Assembly: GCA_027449865.1 (NCBI GenBank)
Contig: DAIDKV010000027.1
Coordinates: forward strand, 1 to 42,116
Direction of reading: 5' to 3'
Source: Planctomycetales bacterium
GTDB taxonomy: Bacteria; Planctomycetota; Planctomycetia; Isosphaerales; Isosphaeraceae
Length of the DNA stretch: 42,116 bases
The notes beneath the pieces are model-generated. The model saw nothing but the letters and a program-made list of their open reading frames with translations, made no database searches and was not told where the DNA came from. Position 1 is the first letter of the stretch; each line of letters opens with the position of its first letter. Of the stretch, positions 7,760-31,958 are shown piece after piece. A program made the position numbers and the translations under genes.

Positions 7760-9199
7760 TCAGGTGCGAATCTGGCCCCATCGCAGGGTCGCGAGCATGC
7801 CGAAGCCCATCAAGGGGGCCCAGGCGGACATCGGCGGATTGATCATCTCGAATGAACTGAGATAGCCAAAGAACAGCAGTCCACCGTAAAAGATCGCCGA
7901 GTTCCCCAGTGCCAGACCAAGGTTTATAAACATATTTCGGCCGTAACCACCAAGGACCAGTGGCAGGGTCATGAAGAGCAAGGCCATGCTCAGCACGGGA
8001 CGGAGGATTCGCTGGTGGAGAAAAATCTCGACATCCATCCGCTGGGTCCCCTCGAGCGTCGGGCCGGCGAGGCTTCGAACGAGGTCGATGGTGTTGGCGT
8101 ACTGATACCAGTTCGGCTTTCGGATCATCGCCTGGAAGGTGAGGCTTGATCGCAGGAAGTAGGCGCCTCGGGCGAGGTCGAGACGGCGGTCAAGCATGAC
8201 GTGGGCCCTCCAGGGCACGAGGCCGACAACCATCGGCATCGGCGGAGCCGAGGCAAAGCAGGCGATCTCGGAATGCGGTAGGATCGCGTCGTCGGACGAG
8301 CCTGGATCGGCCTCGCCAGCGGGATTGACTGCGTTCGCGGGTGTTTCGGGCTTCCTGGATGCGGTGGTTGGCACCTCCAGTGGGGGCGGGTAATGATCCA
8401 GGTCCACAACCCGGGTCAACAGCCCCTCGCTGTCGCGCATCATCTGCTCGTCCATTGGCGGGTCCATCCTCGCCTCGCGGATCAACCATCCGCCCTTCAA
8501 GGGGGCCGTCGGGTGGTCGGGCGGGATGTAGGTCGCTTGAGTCCCGACGATCACATAAAACCGGCCCAGGACTTCGGGTGGAATGGTCACGTCAAACTTC
8601 GTGATGGTCCGCGTGGCCCGGTCGGCTGACTTGCCAAGCAACATGATCTTCCGCTCGTCGTACCGGGTGGAGACGACGTTGACGCGTTGAAGACCATCGT
8701 CCTGGTGAGACCGCGAAAGTTCCTCACCAAGGTACGGCATCACAACTTCCTGGTTGCCGATCGCGAACGTGCTGACGACCACCGACGAAATGAGCACCGG
8801 AACAATCGCCCGATGCGTACTGATCCCCGCCGCGAGCATCGCCAGGTGCTCGTTGTTCCGCTGCATCCAGGTTACGGTGAAGATCGCCGCCATCATCCCA
8901 ATCACGCCGCAGAGTCGGTCGAAAATCTCACTCTGGTGGACGAGATAGTACCGGCTCATGATCCGGAAGAGTTCGACCGATGTGTCGGCGCGCTTGGCGA
9001 ACTCGTCGAGGTTCGAGAAGGCGTCGATGATGATGTAGAGACCGACCAGCGAGACGTAACAGATCACATAGGCCTTGATGAAGGCCCAGTATCGCTGACG
9101 GTCGAGGATACGCATCCGCGCCACGACCCCCCAGGACACCGCCACGACAGCGATCGTTGCCGCGATCGCCCACGGCCCGCTCGCACGCAGGATTTCCAC
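7760..9199 (-). CDS. lptG: LptF/LptG-family permease, second gene of the pair
   Basis: A 479-aa YjgP/YjgQ-type permease. In the LptBFGC machine the two permeases extract lipopolysaccharide from the inner membrane and pass it to the periplasmic bridge. Three hydrophobic segments lie in the first ~150 residues. A large periplasmic beta-jellyroll-like part follows (~160-370) with a Pro-rich insertion (about residues 268-300). Three further helices make up the C-terminus (RPVLSMALLFMTLPLVLGGYG..., SAIFYGGLLFFGYLSSF). The 6-TM arrangement with a central soluble domain fits the family; the sequence is longer than E. coli LptG (360 aa). It starts 15 nt after the lptF stop, so the two are one operon. 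Which paralogue is LptF and which is LptG is assigned by gene order only. Confidence 0.85.
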   Translation of the reverse strand: MEILRASGPWAIAATIAVVAVSWGVVARMRILDRQRYWAFIKAYVICYVSLVGLYIIIDAFSNLDEFAKRADTSVELFRIMSRYYLVHQSEIFDRLCGVIGMMAAIFTVTWMQRNNEHLAMLAAGISTHRAIVPVLISSVVVSTFAIGNQEVVMPYLGEELSRSHQDDGLQRVNVVSTRYDERKIMLLGKSADRATRTITKFDVTIPPEVLGRFYVIVGTQATYIPPDHPTAPLKGGWLIREARMDPPMDEQMMRDSEGLLTRVVDLDHYPPPLEVPTTASRKPETPANAVNPAGEADPGSSDDAILPHSEIACFASAPPMPMVVGLVPWRAHVMLDRRLDLARGAYFLRSSLTFQAMIRKPNWYQYANTIDLVRSLAGPTLEGTQRMDVEIFLHQRILRPVLSMALLFMTLPLVLGGYGRNMFINLGLALGNSAIFYGGLLFFGYLSSFEMINPPMSAWAPLMGFGMLATLRWGQIRT

Positions 9200-9214
9200 G
9201 ATCGTCCCCCCGTA

Positions 9215-10423
9215 TCAATGCCGGATGATCGGCGGCAGTACCACCCAGGCGAGAATCGCCAGCAGAGCATTGCCGATCGAGAGCGACCAGTAAGGCGGCA
9301 GCATTCCCTCATTGCCCAGGTTCTTGCCGACGAGCATGAGCGGGTAATACAGGGTGATAATCGGCACGAAGCAGGTGATGAAGGCACTCAGGAAGTCGCG
9401 CCGGGCAAAGCGGATGCCCACCGGCGCCCCAAGCACGACAAACAGCAGACTCCCGCAGGCCATCGAAAGCCGGAGCCACCATTCGGTCTCCAGTTCGTTC
9501 CTTTGTCGGACGGCATATCCATGGCCGACGAAGGCGGCATCGACGTCGAACCAGTTCATCCGGTCGAACCGCCCCGAGCCGAAGTGAAAACCAGCGGCCA
9601 TCGCTTGTCGTAGCCGCTCGGTCTTGATGACGTACTCTTGCTGCTTCATCTCGGCGCGAAGAGTGCGGCTGCTCTTTTCCTGGATCTTGATTTCGGGGTC
9701 GAACTTGCTGTCCTTGGGGATCGGGATGTCGAGCTGACGGTCGTGGATCAGGGCGATGTCGGCGTCCTTGCGGTGCAGTAGCTCCGCGTTGTCGAAGTAG
9801 ATTCGCACCACCTTGTCTACCTCGACATCGAAGTGCAGGACGGCCTTCTTCGACTGGATCACCATGTCGAACTCGTCCTTGCCAGGGGCCACCCGATGCT
9901 TGAACGTCGGGTTGATCATCTCCTTCCCCTGGACATCGCTCACCTTGATCAAAAACGGCCAGTGCGGATTATTGAATTCGTGGTCCCTCTTCAGCAGCTT
10001 GTAAAAGGTTTCCTCAAGATCCCGGAACAGGACCATCTTGGCGGCGTGAGTGTAATAGGGAATCCAGGTGGCGCTCAGGTAGAGCAGCAGGAAGCTCAGA
10101 CCGATAGCAAGATAGTACGTCGGCATGAGGATCTTCATGACACTCACGCCGGCCGTCTTGATGGCGATGATCTCGTTGTCGCCGGCGAGGCGGCCGTAGA
10201 CCACGGTGACGGCGAAGAGGAGCGAGACGGGAATCGTGTAGGGGAGGGTGCTCGGCAGGACGTACGGCACCAACTCGGCGATGTCCTGCGGCGAGAGCCC
10301 AATGTCTCGCGCCTGGGCCGCGACCATGAACAGCACGAAGATCGCGGACATGGTCAACAGCGCCAGGGAGAAGGCGCGGAAGACCTCGAAGATCACGTAC
10401 CGCTGGAGGATGCTCAAGGCCAC
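9215..10423 (-). CDS. lptF: LptF/LptG-family permease, first gene of the pair
   Basis: A 402-aa permease of the lipopolysaccharide export complex. The N-terminus is typical (ILQRYVIFEVFRAFSLALLTMSAIF), followed by the TIPVSLLFAVTVVYGRLAGDNEIIAIKTAGVS block that forms helix 2 and the coupling region facing the LptB ATPase. The middle (~135-310) is the soluble periplasmic domain. The C-terminal helices include LGAPVGIRFARRD.. and SLSIGNALLAILAWVVLPP. It is the promoter-proximal gene of the lptF-lptG pair. The neighbouring aminotransferase ends about 130 nt downstream in plus coordinates, on the same strand and transcriptionally upstream. Confidence 0.88.
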   Translation of the reverse strand: MALSILQRYVIFEVFRAFSLALLTMSAIFVLFMVAAQARDIGLSPQDIAELVPYVLPSTLPYTIPVSLLFAVTVVYGRLAGDNEIIAIKTAGVSVMKILMPTYYLAIGLSFLLLYLSATWIPYYTHAAKMVLFRDLEETFYKLLKRDHEFNNPHWPFLIKVSDVQGKEMINPTFKHRVAPGKDEFDMVIQSKKAVLHFDVEVDKVVRIYFDNAELLHRKDADIALIHDRQLDIPIPKDSKFDPEIKIQEKSSRTLRAEMKQQEYVIKTERLRQAMAAGFHFGSGRFDRMNWFDVDAAFVGHGYAVRQRNELETEWWLRLSMACGSLLFVVLGAPVGIRFARRDFLSAFITCFVPIITLYYPLMLVGKNLGNEGMLPPYWSLSIGNALLAILAWVVLPPIIRH

Positions 10424-10556
10424 GACCCCCGTATTCGCTTCCGTGCTAACGGGATATTTGTCATTCGTCCTTAGCTCTTGGCCATGGGAAGGCCGGCCAC
10501 TGCGCGCCGAGCTGGTCCTCGGACCGCGACGAAGCCAGGAAACCCACTCTCAGGAA

Positions 10557-11837
10557 CTATTTACCAAGAACAAATCGAAGAGCGGCAGCGAGTCGCCGCG
10601 TCCCCTCGACAAGCTCATCCTCGCGGGGAACGCCGAAGGTCAGTCGAATATGGTTCTTCGGCCGAGGGGCGGGCTCGGGTGCGAAGGCGAATTCGCCCGG
10701 CACGTAGAGAACTCCCTCGCGGACACTCCTCGGAAAAAGCGGCCCGTCGAGGCCCGTATCCACCCCCTCGGGCAAGGTCATCCAGACGAAGAGCCCTCCT
10801 TGAGGGCGGGTCCACGAGATCCCGGGATCAAGACCGCCCAGCGAGTCGTCGAGCGCGGCGAGGAAAACCTCACTCTTGCGCCGGTAAAGTTCGTTGAGCC
10901 GGGCGACATGGCGGTCGTAGCCGCCGCCGGCCAGGGCCCGCTCGACCAGGCGCTGGTTGAAGTGCGCCGAGCCGAAGTCATGATTCCCCTTCGTGTAAAG
11001 GATCGGATCGATCAGGGACTCCGGTACAATTCCGTATCCAAGCTTGATGCCGGGGCTGAAGGTCTTGCTGAACGTCCGGGCGAGGATGACCGTATCGCCT
11101 TCGCGGTCGTGGCTCCAGACGCTCGGCGGCTCGCTGGCCCCAAACGAAAGACCGCGATAGGCCGCGTCCTCCAGAATGAAGATCCGGTGAGACCTTGACC
11201 ACCGCCGCGCCAGTTCCACCAGGGGCCCGCGACGGTCCGCCGCCAGGCTGATCCCAGACGGATTGGAGTGCTCGGGGATCGTGTAGATCAGCTTGACGCG
11301 ATCGAGTTGCCCTTCGGCCTCAATTCCGGCAAGCGTCGCCTCCAGGGCATCGAGCCGAAGCCCACCCTCATCGACCGGGATGCCGATGACCCGCGCCCCT
11401 CGCGTCTCCATCGGGCCCAGGAAGACAAAGTAGGTCGGCGACTCGACCAGAACGATATCCCCCTGGTCTACGAGCGCCTCGCCGACGAGGTAGATCAACT
11501 GCGCTGATCCGGTGGTGACAACGGTCCTCGGGATCACCTCCTTGCAAGAGCCCGCCGGGCGTCCGTCCTCGCGTTCGAGCCGGGCGACCAGCCGTTCCCT
11601 TAGCGCGTGGTCGCCGATGGTCGTCCCATACTGGAGCGACCGGCGCGCCTCGAAAGGCTCGGCGGCCAGCCCGGCGACGATCTCCCCCACCAGCTCGACT
11701 GGCAAGGTCTCTTGATCCACGAAGCCAGCCGCCAGCGAGACGATCTCCGGATTCTCCAGGGCCGTCTGCATCAGGTGGCTGATCGATGGAGGCTGTGTTC
11801 GACGTGCGGACGCGCTGAGGGACACTGGGATCGTCAT
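10557..11837 (-). CDS. PLP-dependent aminotransferase, fold type I (class I/II, LysN/MocR-like)
   Basis: The 426-aa enzyme should transfer amino groups using pyridoxal phosphate in the cytoplasm. Visible family marks are the GSAQLIYLVGEAL helix, the ESPTYF strand, the substrate/PLP loop E-H-SNPSG, the Asp of EDAAYRGL that pairs with the PLP ring nitrogen, and the PLP lysine in TFSKTFSPGIKLGY. The C-terminal Arg region (HIRLTFGVP) that binds the substrate carboxylate is also present. The overall pattern is closest to 2-aminoadipate/aromatic aminotransferases of the LysN group; the substrate cannot be read from the sequence. No HTH domain is attached, so it is not a MocR regulator. The start is uncertain: ATG at 11837 or 11876, neither with a clear ribosome site. 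agmatine deiminase is divergent upstream. Confidence 0.88.
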   Translation of the reverse strand: MTIPVSLSASARRTQPPSISHLMQTALENPEIVSLAAGFVDQETLPVELVGEIVAGLAAEPFEARRSLQYGTTIGDHALRERLVARLEREDGRPAGSCKEVIPRTVVTTGSAQLIYLVGEALVDQGDIVLVESPTYFVFLGPMETRGARVIGIPVDEGGLRLDALEATLAGIEAEGQLDRVKLIYTIPEHSNPSGISLAADRRGPLVELARRWSRSHRIFILEDAAYRGLSFGASEPPSVWSHDREGDTVILARTFSKTFSPGIKLGYGIVPESLIDPILYTKGNHDFGSAHFNQRLVERALAGGGYDRHVARLNELYRRKSEVFLAALDDSLGGLDPGISWTRPQGGLFVWMTLPEGVDTGLDGPLFPRSVREGVLYVPGEFAFAPEPAPRPKNHIRLTFGVPREDELVEGTRRLAAALRFVLGK

Positions 11838-27681: not shown

Positions 27682-28068
27682 ATGGTTCGACCGCAGGAAG
27701 AGGCGCTGACGGCCCGCGAGGCGCAGATCATGGAGGTGGTCTGGCGGCTGGGCGAGGCATCGGCCGAGCAGGTGCGTGAGGCGATGCCCGAGGCGCCTCA
27801 CGATTCGACGGTCCGGACGCTGCTTCGGGTACTGGAGTCGAAGGGATACCTGGAGCACGAAACGCGGGGGAAGGCGTACGTCTACCGGGCGCGTGTCGAA
27901 CGCGAGAAGGCGCAGCGGCGGGCGGTGGGTAGTTTGCTTTCCCGGCTCTTCGGCGGCTCGGCCGAGGATCTCGTGCTCCGGCTCATTGAGGACGAGCAGC
28001 TCACCCCGGAACAACTCACGGCGCTCCGTCGACGGGCCGGAGGTAAGCGAAAAGGAGGGACTCCATGA
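27682..28068 (+). CDS. blaI: BlaI/MecI/CopY-family repressor
   Basis: A 128-aa winged-helix regulator. The N-terminal ~75 residues match the family: LTAREAQIMEVVWRLGEASAEQVREAMPE, then HDSTVRTLLRVLESKGYLEHETRGKAYVYRARV, where the recognition helix is STVRTLLRVLESKG. The rest (RAVGSLLSRLFGGSAEDLVLRLIEDEQLTPEQL) is the dimerisation helix region. In the known systems a partner membrane protease cleaves the repressor when a signal is sensed. Here the gene overlaps the M56 protease gene by ATGA, which fits that partnership. The TTAAG/GGGAG upstream of the ATG supports the start. The inducing signal is unknown. Confidence 0.92.
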   Translation: MVRPQEEALTAREAQIMEVVWRLGEASAEQVREAMPEAPHDSTVRTLLRVLESKGYLEHETRGKAYVYRARVEREKAQRRAVGSLLSRLFGGSAEDLVLRLIEDEQLTPEQLTALRRRAGGKRKGGTP

Positions 28069-30620
28069 GCGTCGAATTCGGCTCGGTGATCTCGCTGGCG
28101 CGGGACCAGGCGATCGGCTCAACGGCGATCCTCGCAATGGCGATCGGCGGGCATCTCGCGCTGGGACGCAAGCGGGCGACGGTTCGATCGTCCCTCTGGG
28201 ACGCCTGCCTCGTCGGCCTCCTGATCCTGCCGGTGGCGTCGATCGCTCTGCCCCGACTCCGGGTTGAGATCCCGGCGGCGCCCCTCGCGATCGATCCCGT
28301 CCGCGAGGTGATCCCCTTCCGCGTGGAGGCTCCGCCGCCCGAACCGGTGTCCATAGTTGTCGCGAGGCCGACTCCTGCCGCCTCGCACGCGGAGCCCATC
28401 GAGGCGCCGGTGGTGGCCTGGCGGCCTGACTGGATCGAACTGGCCCTGGGCGTGTATCTGATCGCCGCGGCCTTGCGAGGGATTGGGCTGGCGGTCGCGA
28501 TGTCGGGGCTCGGACGTCTCCGACGCCGATGCCGATCGATCGACGATCCGCGATGGGTCGAGGCGCTCGATCGGTGGGGAGGGCGGCTTGGGATCGGTCG
28601 TCGGGTGGATTTGCTGGCGACGAATCAAATCTCGGTCCCGATCGCCGCGGGATGGCTCCGTCCCTCGATCGTCATCCCGGAGGGGCTGGTCGGCACGTTC
28701 GACCCCGAGGCGATCGACGCCGTCTTGCTTCATGAGCTGGCACACGTGCGCCGTGGGGATTTCGGCTGGAATCTCGCCTTGAAGCTCGTGCAGATTCTTT
28801 ACTGGCCGCATCCGATGGTCTGGATGGCCGGGCGGATGATGGCTGGGGTCCGCGAGCAGGTTTGCGACGACCTTTGCGTCCACGTCCTTGGCGGCTCCGA
28901 AGCGTATCGCGCCACGCTGATCGAGGTCGCCTCGGGGTTGGTCCGGCGACCGGGTCCGTCGATCGGGATGGCGATGGCGAGGGGGCCGGGCCTCGTCCGT
29001 CGGCTGGACTGGATCGACCGGACCCGAGGCGCCTCGCGGTGTCTCTCGCGATGGCAGGCGCGGCTCGCAATCGCGATGGTGATGATCGTAGCGGCCGGGC
29101 TGCTGGGAACGGTCGAGGTCTCGCGGGGGTCGGCGCAGTCCGATGAGCCGCCCGCAAAACCGAAAGAGGCAACCACCCCGCGAACAATTGATGTCATCGT
29201 TCGCGACAGGGTAACGGGCAAGCCGATCGTGGGAGCCAGGGTCCGACCCACGATTAACCTGGAAGAATCGATCCGCCAGACCGATCGAGAAGGGCGATCT
29301 CGTATCGTTCTGTTCCGACACGGGCCGACGGAGCGACTCAATCTCGACGTCTGGGCCGAGGGCTACGTTCAGCAGCGGCACTACTTTACCCAGACCGGTT
29401 CGCGATATCCGAGGATCCCCGACCACCTGATCGTCGAGTTACTCCCGGGAGAGCAGACGCTCGGCGGGACGGTCCGCGACGAGGAGGGCCGGCCGATCCC
29501 GGGCGTGAAGGTTGTGGTCTGGGGCTACCTTGGCGAGAAGAAGCAGAAGGAGGAACTGGCCTACATGGTCGACGCCACGACCGACGATCAGGGCCAATGG
29601 CGATGCCGTTGCTTCCGGTCCATGAAGTTCGGTTATCTGTACCTAACGCATCCGGAATACGTCTCGGATGACGACCTTCATCCTCGTGCGCATGGGAGCC
29701 CCGATCCGAATGGGCCGGTGCGACCGGACGATCTGCCCTTGCAATCGCTCCTTGATTTCAGCGACGTGCAGATCATGATGCGGGGTGTTACGGTCTCGGG
29801 CGAGGTCCGGGATGAAGCGGGAAATCCGATCGAGGGTGCCGAGGTCGAATGGATCGACGCCGCCATGAAACAGATGTTTCACTCGAAGGTCGCGAGGACG
29901 ACCACCGACCGGAATGGGCAATTCCGTTTTGAGCACGTGCGGCCCGGGGGCGTGGCGCTCCAGTTCAGGGCCAGGGGACACGCACCCGACGTGAAAACGA
30001 TCGAGGTCAGGCGAGTCGCGCGGCCGATCGGGATCACCCTGGGGCCTGCGCAGCGACTGGAGGGCCGCGTCGTCGACACGGCCGGCCGGCCGATCCCGGG
30101 GGCGACGGTCAAGGTCGATACGCCACACGTACTCCGGACAATGGGCTCCCGGCACTTCGAGACCGACGCCGACGGGTGGTTCCGCTGGGAGGATGCCCCC
30201 GCGGATGGAATCCTTCTCGACGTGGGATGTCGTGGCTTCGTGGGCGTCTCGGAGAAGGTGGTCCGGGCGGGCGAGGACATCACCGTGACGCTCTCTCGGG
30301 CAGTCTCGGTCTCGGGCAAGATCCAGGATGCCCTCACGAAGAAGCTCATCGATCGCGCCGAGGTCGAGGTCGGATTCAACGACCCAAAGACCGGGAAGCT
30401 GACCTGGGAGCGGACTACTGGGGGCTTCGCGATGCAGGGTGAATTCCGGGCGGAAATCGCCGTCGAACGCCTCGCAGAATTCCGGCTCCGTGTCACGGCA
30501 AAAGGTTACGAGCCGGCCGAATCGCGCGTCTTCAAGGCTGACGAGGTGCAGGTCGAGTACGACTTCTCTCTGAAGCCGGCCGAAAAATCGGCGGCGCGGG
30601 AGGTCTTGGGGACCGGGTAA
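28065..30620 (+). CDS. BlaR1-like M56 membrane peptidase fused to carboxypeptidase-regulatory repeats
   Basis: An 851-aa protein. Membrane segments lie at ~18-36, ~46-64, ~124-146 and ~327-345. The zinc protease motif HELAH is at 223-227 in VLLHELAHVRRGDFGW, with the following Glu site in VREQVCDDLC. This half is the M56 (BlaR1/MecR1) protease. The C-terminal part lacks the penicillin-binding domain of BlaR1. It has about five CarboxypepD_reg-type beta-sandwich units, marked by DVIVRDRVTGKPIVGARV, GGTVRDEEGRPIPGVKV, GEVRDEAGNPIEGAEV, GRVVDTAGRPIPGATV and GKIQDALTKKLIDRAEV. These are likely extracytoplasmic sensing or adhesion modules. It is coupled to the BlaI-like gene by ATGA, so together they look like a repressor plus protease sensor for a non-beta-lactam signal. 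Confidence 0.9.
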   Translation: MSVEFGSVISLARDQAIGSTAILAMAIGGHLALGRKRATVRSSLWDACLVGLLILPVASIALPRLRVEIPAAPLAIDPVREVIPFRVEAPPPEPVSIVVARPTPAASHAEPIEAPVVAWRPDWIELALGVYLIAAALRGIGLAVAMSGLGRLRRRCRSIDDPRWVEALDRWGGRLGIGRRVDLLATNQISVPIAAGWLRPSIVIPEGLVGTFDPEAIDAVLLHELAHVRRGDFGWNLALKLVQILYWPHPMVWMAGRMMAGVREQVCDDLCVHVLGGSEAYRATLIEVASGLVRRPGPSIGMAMARGPGLVRRLDWIDRTRGASRCLSRWQARLAIAMVMIVAAGLLGTVEVSRGSAQSDEPPAKPKEATTPRTIDVIVRDRVTGKPIVGARVRPTINLEESIRQTDREGRSRIVLFRHGPTERLNLDVWAEGYVQQRHYFTQTGSRYPRIPDHLIVELLPGEQTLGGTVRDEEGRPIPGVKVVVWGYLGEKKQKEELAYMVDATTDDQGQWRCRCFRSMKFGYLYLTHPEYVSDDDLHPRAHGSPDPNGPVRPDDLPLQSLLDFSDVQIMMRGVTVSGEVRDEAGNPIEGAEVEWIDAAMKQMFHSKVARTTTDRNGQFRFEHVRPGGVALQFRARGHAPDVKTIEVRRVARPIGITLGPAQRLEGRVVDTAGRPIPGATVKVDTPHVLRTMGSRHFETDADGWFRWEDAPADGILLDVGCRGFVGVSEKVVRAGEDITVTLSRAVSVSGKIQDALTKKLIDRAEVEVGFNDPKTGKLTWERTTGGFAMQGEFRAEIAVERLAEFRLRVTAKGYEPAESRVFKADEVQVEYDFSLKPAEKSAAREVLGTG

Positions 30621-30621
30621 A

Positions 30622-30692
30622 TATACCAAGTTATAGCGGAGATCGCGTATAGCCGAGTATAATCCGCTATAAGGCGCGATAACTCCCTATAG
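30622..30692. repeat. Four-copy TATAG motif array before the AAA ATPase
   Basis: This A+T-rich 70-bp stretch in a GC-rich genome holds four copies of TATAGnGGAG: 30632-30641 and 30648-30657 on the plus strand, 30662-30671 and 30682-30691 on the minus strand. They form two direct copies facing two inverted ones. TTATAGCGGA and TCCGCTATAA are exact 10-bp inverted repeats. The array ends 15 nt before the ATPase start. It may be an operator for that gene, an iteron-like site for the ATPase itself, or both. Confidence 0.6.
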
Positions 30693-30706
30693 ACCAGTGA
30701 CCACGC

Positions 30707-31891
30707 ATGGACCCGATCAAGAACCCATTCTCGCCTGGCGCGGGCTCTCCACCTCCGGAACTCGTCGGACGCGACCCCGTGCTTGAGCAATCACGCATCC
30801 TGCTGGGGCGGGTCAAGGAGAGGCGCCCCGAGAAGAGTCTTCTGCTGACGGGACTGCGGGGGGTCGGCAAGACGGTTTTGCTCAACGAGATCGAGCGGAT
30901 GGCGAAGGCCGACGGCTATCGCACCGTCTCGATCGAGGCCCACGAGGACAAGCCCCTGGGCAAGCTGATCGCCCCCTATCTGCGCACGTTGCTCTTCGAG
31001 TTGGACCGGATCGCGGGTGCGGGAGACAAGGTCAAGCGGGGGCTGGCCGTCCTGCGGAGCTTCATCGGGTCGCTCAAGTTCACCGTGAATGACATGGCCA
31101 TCGGCCTGGACATCGAGCCCGAGAAGGGGGCGGCCGATAGCGGCGACCTCGAGATCGACCTGCCCAACCTGTTCGTCGCGATTGGTGAGGCGGCCGAGGA
31201 CCGCAAGAGCGCCGTGGCCCTCTTCATCGACGAGATCCAGTATTTCAACCAGAAGGAACTCGGCTCGCTAATCATGGCGATGCACCGGGTGCAGCAACTC
31301 CGGCTCCCGCTGGTCCTCCTCGGCGCGGGCCTGCCCATCCTCCCGGGGCTCGCCGGGGAATCGAAGTCCTATGCCGAGCGGCTGTTCAACTTCCCGGATA
31401 TCGGGGCCCTCTCGGCCGAGGATGCCGCGAAGGCCCTGCGGGACCCGGCGGAGGCGGCATCCGTTCGGTTCGATCCGGCGGCGCTCGAAGAGAGCTATCG
31501 ACAGACAAGGGGATATCCCTACTTCGTCCAGGAATGGGGCTATCAGGTGTGGAACCTCGCGACGGCCAGCCCGATCACGGAGCGGGTCGTCCTTGATGCG
31601 ACGTCGGCTGTGATCCGCCGGCTCGACGAGAACTTCTTCCGCGTGCGCTTCGATCGCCTGACCCCGAGCGAGAAGAACTTCCTGCGCGCGATGGCCGCAC
31701 TCGGGCCGGGCGCCCATCGCACCGGCGACATCGCTGTCAAGCTGGGCGTCAAGGTGACCAGTCTCGGCCCCGTACGGTCCAAGCTCATCAAGAAGGGGAT
31801 GATCTACAGCCCGGCGCATGGGGACCTCGAGTTCACCGTGCCCCTGTTCGATGAGTTCATGATCCGGGCGATCCCGTATTTCAAGGCTTAA
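30707..31891 (+). CDS. AAA ATPase with Orc1/Cdc6-like layout
   Basis: A 394-aa cytoplasmic ATPase. The P-loop is GLRGVGKT (49-56) and Walker B is ALFIDEIQYF at ~170. A Sensor-1-like LPLVLLGAGLP segment follows, then LFNFPDIGALSAEDAAKAL, the start of the lid, and the conserved GYPYFVQEWGYQVW helix. The last ~85 residues form a winged-helix module (AVKLGVKVTSLGPVRSKLIKKGMIYSP..G.LEFTVPLFDEF). This domain order is that of archaeal-type ATPases related to Orc1/Cdc6, which occur widely but sparsely in bacteria. Their cellular role in bacteria is not established. It is the only gene behind the TATAG array. Start by ATG 30707; no strong ribosome site is visible. Confidence 0.82.
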   Translation: MDPIKNPFSPGAGSPPPELVGRDPVLEQSRILLGRVKERRPEKSLLLTGLRGVGKTVLLNEIERMAKADGYRTVSIEAHEDKPLGKLIAPYLRTLLFELDRIAGAGDKVKRGLAVLRSFIGSLKFTVNDMAIGLDIEPEKGAADSGDLEIDLPNLFVAIGEAAEDRKSAVALFIDEIQYFNQKELGSLIMAMHRVQQLRLPLVLLGAGLPILPGLAGESKSYAERLFNFPDIGALSAEDAAKALRDPAEAASVRFDPAALEESYRQTRGYPYFVQEWGYQVWNLATASPITERVVLDATSAVIRRLDENFFRVRFDRLTPSEKNFLRAMAALGPGAHRTGDIAVKLGVKVTSLGPVRSKLIKKGMIYSPAHGDLEFTVPLFDEFMIRAIPYFKA

Positions 31892-31958
31892 AGACCCGGA
31901 TCGGCCGCCTCGCCCACGGCGGATCACGAACGCCGCGCCGAACGTCCCGACGGGAGGG

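Follow-up and report, generated by a model that had tools for sequence, protein, structure and literature searches.

The short repeats in front of an AAA+ ATPase gene in this Planctomycetales bacterium are a real and widely conserved DNA control site. Their best explanation, and in our judgement a probable one, is that they form the self-operator of a mobile AAA+/winged-helix ATPase; the ATPase most likely binds the array that precedes its own gene. The site and the gene move together between bacteria as a one-gene unit. In the window, by which we mean the whole stretch of 42,116 nucleotides that was analysed, the features are as follows.

28065 to 30620: the M56-peptidase open reading frame (ORF), which ends at the gap that holds the array.
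30584 to 31941, forward strand: an extra unit of about 1.36 kb, made up of a short left flank, the array, the ATPase gene and a right flank of about 50 bp, absent in genome G003; its ends are placed to within about 10 bp.
30621 to 30635, no strand assigned: left arm of the array, from the sequence and the register of 81 homologous regions, with the cores ATATA at 30621-30625 (degenerate) and TTATA at 30631-30635.
30648 to 30692, no strand assigned: right arm of the array, from the sequence, the 81-region register and the genome-unique phased pairs, with the cores TATAG at 30648, TATAA at 30658, TATAA at 30668, GATAA at 30678 (degenerate) and TATAG at 30688.
30631 to 30640 and 30663 to 30672, no strand assigned: the exact 10-bp inverted pair TTATAGCGGA / TCCGCTATAA, from the sequence.
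30707 to 31891, forward strand: AAA+ ATPase of 394 aa with a C-terminal winged helix, the predicted reader of the array (Pfam AAA_16, AlphaFold2 model, fold matches).
31721 to 31834, forward strand: winged helix-turn-helix, residues 339-376, with the recognition helix at about 350-362 (model; association of residues 351 and 349 with the array type).

The sequence and the ORF list place the gap at 30621-30706, between the stop of the M56-peptidase ORF and the ATG of the 394-aa ORF. The array (30621-30692) lies in it ahead of the ATPase gene and consists of two facing arms of 5-bp cores, TTATA on the left and TATAA on the right. Within each arm the cores stand on a 10-bp grid, and the starts of the two innermost cores, TTATA and TATAG, are 17 bp apart. 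The initial annotation had described a symmetric, repeated TATA-type array filling the gap before the ATPase start codon, and both this array and the exact 10-bp inverted pair were found there. It had also counted four copies of TATAGnGGAG. One copy is exact (30632-30641, forward strand) and two have one mismatch (30648, forward; 30662, reverse), but the fourth, TATAGGGAGT (30683-30692, reverse), has three mismatches, and the consensus was wrong in detail. With at most one mismatch this motif occurs 8 times in the window (2.45 expected). When the same 85 bp were dinucleotide-shuffled 5000 times, 5 of the shuffles reached the phased-pair score of the array. It was comparison with relatives that revealed the true register, a 10-bp grid in facing arms.

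Orthologues of the ATPase at 71-87% identity occur in Planctomycetota, Pseudomonadota, Verrucomicrobiota, Chlamydiota, Nitrospirota, Acidobacteriota, Chloroflexota and others. The array is kept before orthologues from about ten phyla; many of the sources are metagenome bins, in which single taxon labels may be wrong. Its layout is visible by eye in nearly all orthologues with enough upstream sequence, and a strict regular expression (at least 4 phased cores) was satisfied by 41 of 79 loci. Over 81 upstream regions, TA[TG]AA cores were spaced by 10 bp 85 times and by 20 bp 40 times, while left-to-right core steps of 17, 27 and 37 bp occurred 40, 60 and 65 times. Same-orientation core pairs 10 bp apart numbered 110 in these regions versus 0.77 ± 0.83 in 200 dinucleotide shuffles. 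A periodicity test that does not depend on the cores gave z = 30.4 at lag 10 and 19.7 at lag 20, and the palindrome score was above all 20 shuffles in 45 of the 81 loci (3.9 expected). The control region 300 bp further upstream had codon periodicity only and no 10-bp periodicity. Retention of the array beside orthologues, proposed earlier as a check, supports a functional site.

A symmetric phased array, built on cores of other sequence, is also present in distant relatives (49-57% protein identity) and plasmid homologues; locus L149, for instance, has GTTTAGCGAGTTTATC-TTTTTTT-GGTAAACTCGCTAAAC. The distant-relative arrays gave z = 5-7 at lags 9-11. Since the same architecture is built from other cores in these relatives, the site and the protein diverge together. 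Paralogous ATPases with NPFRPGAGH N-termini were also seen in other genomes of the host's family (L020, L021 and L022); upstream of these, a TTGACA-like box and TAAATTTA-type sequences replace the TATA array.

In the DNA searched, the array is confined to the promoter of its own gene. The pattern STATAR-N4-STATAR occurs in the whole 8.48-Mb host genome at two overlapping places only, both inside the array, and across 731 kb of loci strict arrays occur at the ATPase gene's own promoter only, bar one extra copy. The motifs could have turned out to be scattered over random sites, which the initial annotation had named as grounds for doubt; instead the phased pattern is unique in the genome and confined in the loci. 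A conserved, binding-site-like array confined to the promoter region of its own gene is what is expected of an autoregulatory operator, and an operator, one of the possibilities raised initially, is the reading that the evidence favours. The extra copy, in L063, is a second complete array about 174-184 bp upstream of the ATPase start, beyond the usual array, and is perhaps a trace of a lost tandem copy. A regulon of single motif copies was also considered and found unsupported: copies with one mismatch are common in the host genome, yet fewer than those of the reversed control.

The protein belongs to AAA_16 (PF13191), with 60.6 bits against the Pfam gathering cut-off of 32.6, and carries the Walker A motif GLRGVGKT and the Walker B motif DEIQ. 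Its AlphaFold2 model (pLDDT 84) places the helices of the winged helix at residues 339-346 and 350-362. The best full-length fold matches were the archaeal AAA+ ATPases PABY2304 (Z 22.9) and SSO1545 (Z 21.9), next came STAND proteins and Orc2/Orc1/Cdc6 (Z about 15-18), and further matches included TnsC (Z 15.1), MuB (Z 13.1) and 8bob (Z 13.5). The archaeal ATPase family PF01637, though closest by fold, gave 19.1 bits against a gathering cut-off of 33.2. Among the PADLOC-DB 2023 defence models there was no convincing match, the best being mads_8 (18.6 bits) besides P-loop-only matches. The protein had been called an Orc1/Cdc6-like ATPase. This name holds for the fold, an AAA+ core followed by a C-terminal winged helix, which matches 1w5t (Z 17.7) and 2qby (Z 16.9) over more than 300 residues, after PABY2304 and SSO1545, but it does not hold for the family, as the orc1/cdc6 model TIGR02928 gave 17.7 bits against a curated cut-off of 181.3.

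Among relatives, the arrays are of a TATA or a TAGA/TCTA type. In a naive ranking the best predictor of the type was residue 351 (rank 1 of 193 variable columns), which lies where the recognition helix starts: T goes with TATA, K with TAGA and N with mixed arrays. Correction for relatedness, on a tree from which the winged helix had been left out, placed residues 351 and 349 second and third of 210 columns, and the recognition helix as a whole was enriched for the association (p = 0.004); no single column survives correction for 210 tests, and the association stems from few independent changes. These correlations are suggestive of recognition of the array cores by the winged helix. For the majority of the far relatives (L145-L155), the best -10-like box is situated 11-14 bp ahead of the ATG, with its -35 within the right arm, and few genes have a Shine-Dalgarno-like sequence (2 of 23, and 19 of 81 for the main group). 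This would agree with transcription that starts at or near the ATG, inside an operator. The promoter of the window gene was not located because promoter-scan scores in the main group were close to those of shuffles and the -10 position was not fixed. Alternatively, the ATPase may not bind the array, which would then be the operator of a different host regulator or have a mostly structural or promoter role. The resemblance of the TATAA cores to -10 boxes would agree with this, and the association at the recognition helix, being suggestive, leaves room for it. We consider it unlikely, since a host regulator would need to be present in all these phyla and to track the diverging cores, no further phased array exists elsewhere in the host genome, and promoters need no facing 10-bp-phased arms.

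The unit is absent from G003, a genome of the same genus, where the site is empty (locus L120): the end of the M56 gene (window up to 30583) is joined to the counterpart of window 31944 onwards, with no array or ATPase, and runs into the sequence upstream of a creatininase gene. About 8 bp of G003 are replaced at the unit site, and no duplicated target was found at this one clean empty site compared. Insertion in the window is the simpler reading because the gene is missing from most relatives, being present in 6 of 45 genomes of the family and 24 of 392 of the phylum. At 30584-30620, the extra unit lengthens the C-terminus of the M56-peptidase ORF and gives it a new stop codon relative to G003. 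A second empty site was sought by comparing G022 with G034, but the only outcome was that their homology stops close to the upstream gene's stop codon. The gene is carried by 118 plasmid records (the whole family counted, down to about 40% identity), and one copy lies on a Vibrio plasmid, in a stretch that resembles an integron cassette array in its gene content. The units occupy unrelated chromosomal, plasmid and cassette-like sites with varying neighbours, and phyla are intermixed at several well-supported places in the ATPase tree. The viral contigs searched held no relative, one unverified 5.9-kb contig among the phage records held one, and E. coli genomes gave no DNA match to the Pantoea member.

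These positions bear on the archaeal-type replication origin that the initial annotation had suggested, in which the Orc-like ATPase would act as initiator and open the DNA or load a helicase at the A+T-rich array, at the host origin or at an ectopic site. The A+T-rich iterated sites do adjoin the gene as at archaeal origins, and the fold similarity to Orc1/Cdc6 includes the winged helix. However, the unit cannot be the host origin because it stands at unrelated positions and is absent from most relatives; it also occurs on plasmids and moves with its gene, the orc1/cdc6 family score is far under the cut-off, and the GC skew has no change centred on the array (a weak test in the 42-kb window). 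The evidence does not support this idea, and we regard an initiation site of any kind as very unlikely. Movement as one gene, together with TnsC and MuB among the fold matches, could instead point to a recombination or transposition site, with the ATPase as a TnsC/MuB-like helper that moves the unit. Against this, the array is inside the unit at one side rather than at both ends, target duplication is missing at the single clean empty site, no transposase or integrase recurs as a neighbour, and the unit ends vary, with mod and helicase scraps of different lengths. We regard this reading as very unlikely, too.

Around the unit, remains of a restriction operon recur. In L039, L090, L042, L056 and L096, a type III mod gene stands before the array and the ATPase gene, and a UvrD helicase gene stands behind; in intact operons the array thus lies between mod and the ATPase and helicase genes. 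The same order is found in L158 (49% identity). The helicase of L039 has a weak RelE/HigB-like N-terminus, and upstream of its mod lies the C-terminal part of a BPTD_3080-type restriction enzyme. L090 has a Fic-domain gene upstream of the operon and, downstream at 8376-11174, a gene matching NCBIfam YjiT_fam and PADLOC DruH. Profile searches of the neighbours (E < 0.001, 79 loci), which replaced an all-against-all comparison of raw ORFs that were mostly frames overlapping the ATPase, showed that 26 of the 79 loci, spread over the tree, have mod and/or helicase sequence next to the gene. These remnants are mostly scraps of about 30-230 bp. The left flank in the window (ending in REVLGTG before the stop) was likened to the end of mod (ending in MKVFRVG), and this was dropped as no profile match was obtained. 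The ATPase and array are an optional member of the operon because L046 has a mod-helicase junction without the ATPase. Pairs of closely related ATPases gave dN/dS of 0.02-0.10, which means strong purifying selection. Some of these pairs, L068/L070 and L051/L062 among them, come from loci in which no piece of mod or helicase was detected. Selection thus maintains the ATPase in its own right, and the unit often outlives the restriction operon that it came with.

Some loci depart from this pattern. L013 (genome G026) has a full-length mod and a clear array before an ATPase frame that matches residues 1-114 only and is perhaps a broken copy. In L031 and L050, a helicase 5' scrap and a mod 3' scrap are joined directly in the order opposite to that of the operon, an arrangement that partial deletion of tandem unit copies might leave behind.

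We propose that the array is at once self-operator and promoter region for the ATPase gene, and that its 5-bp cores are bound by the winged helix at the C-terminus of the AAA+ protein. The 10-bp spacing puts the cores on the same side of the double helix, and several protomers can therefore align along each arm; on the two arms the protomers would have opposite orientations. The array extends almost to the start codon and overlaps promoter-like sequence in many relatives, and for this reason the bound protein would most likely block RNA polymerase (autorepression); the switch is likely to be ATP-dependent oligomerisation. On this model, the array and gene ancestrally belonged to an operon of type III mod and UvrD-type helicase genes, between the two, where they would set the expression of the ATPase and the helicase. 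The unit is also transferred and maintained on its own, so some function of the ATPase must be under selection even where these neighbours are missing.

SSO1545/PABY2304-type ATPases (PF01637 type, related to STAND proteins) share the AAA+ core and the C-terminal winged helix (Z 21.9-22.9), whereas the window ATPase scores below their family cut-off (19.1 versus 33.2 bits), and to our knowledge no self-array is known for them. Archaeal and eukaryotic Orc1/Cdc6 proteins have the same order of AAA+ core and winged helix (Z about 15-18); the system described here, in contrast, is bacterial and mobile, with one gene per unit and an array at its own promoter only. As described in PMC9738581, archaeal Orc1-2 is a non-initiator regulator, and an Orc-type protein can thus regulate transcription. 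PMC3115060 and PMC4041747 describe the C proteins of type II restriction-modification systems as DNA-binding regulators that are encoded inside the operon and have an operator before their own gene. By analogy, the ATPase is encoded inside a restriction-modification operon and would act on an operator before its own gene. However, C proteins are small helix-turn-helix proteins of type II systems; here the protein is a 394-aa AAA+ ATPase, the linked genes encode a type III Mod and a UvrD helicase, the array has multiple 10-bp-phased cores, and the unit frequently survives without the operon. The likeness to the TnsC/MuB/IstB group of transposition ATPases is one of fold, with no recurrent transposase neighbour and no target duplication at the one empty site. 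MalT and other STAND transcription regulators are ATP-switched oligomeric activators on short repeated sites. They may illustrate how an ATPase works on repeated sites (8bob, Z 13.5), but MalT-type regulators are much larger and have sensor domains, and here the sites face each other before the protein's own gene. We found no report of such a gene-and-array unit in the open-access literature.

It is possible, and we put it forward tentatively, that this is a one-gene module of a new kind, in which an AAA+/winged-helix switch protein would assemble on the symmetric, 10-bp-phased array in its own promoter. It may have arisen as the control gene of a type III mod/helicase operon and survived the decay of that operon through an activity of its own. 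The cellular role of the ATPase might, for example, be the sensing of invading DNA with release of self-repression, or the restraint of a helicase with a RelE-like domain. The unit is found across phyla and pairs an Orc-like AAA+ ATPase with a very regular DNA target of its own. This array lends itself directly to binding assays of the ATP switch in AAA+ proteins of this type, and because the unit has repeatedly outlasted its restriction operon, attention turns to the activity of the ATPase itself.
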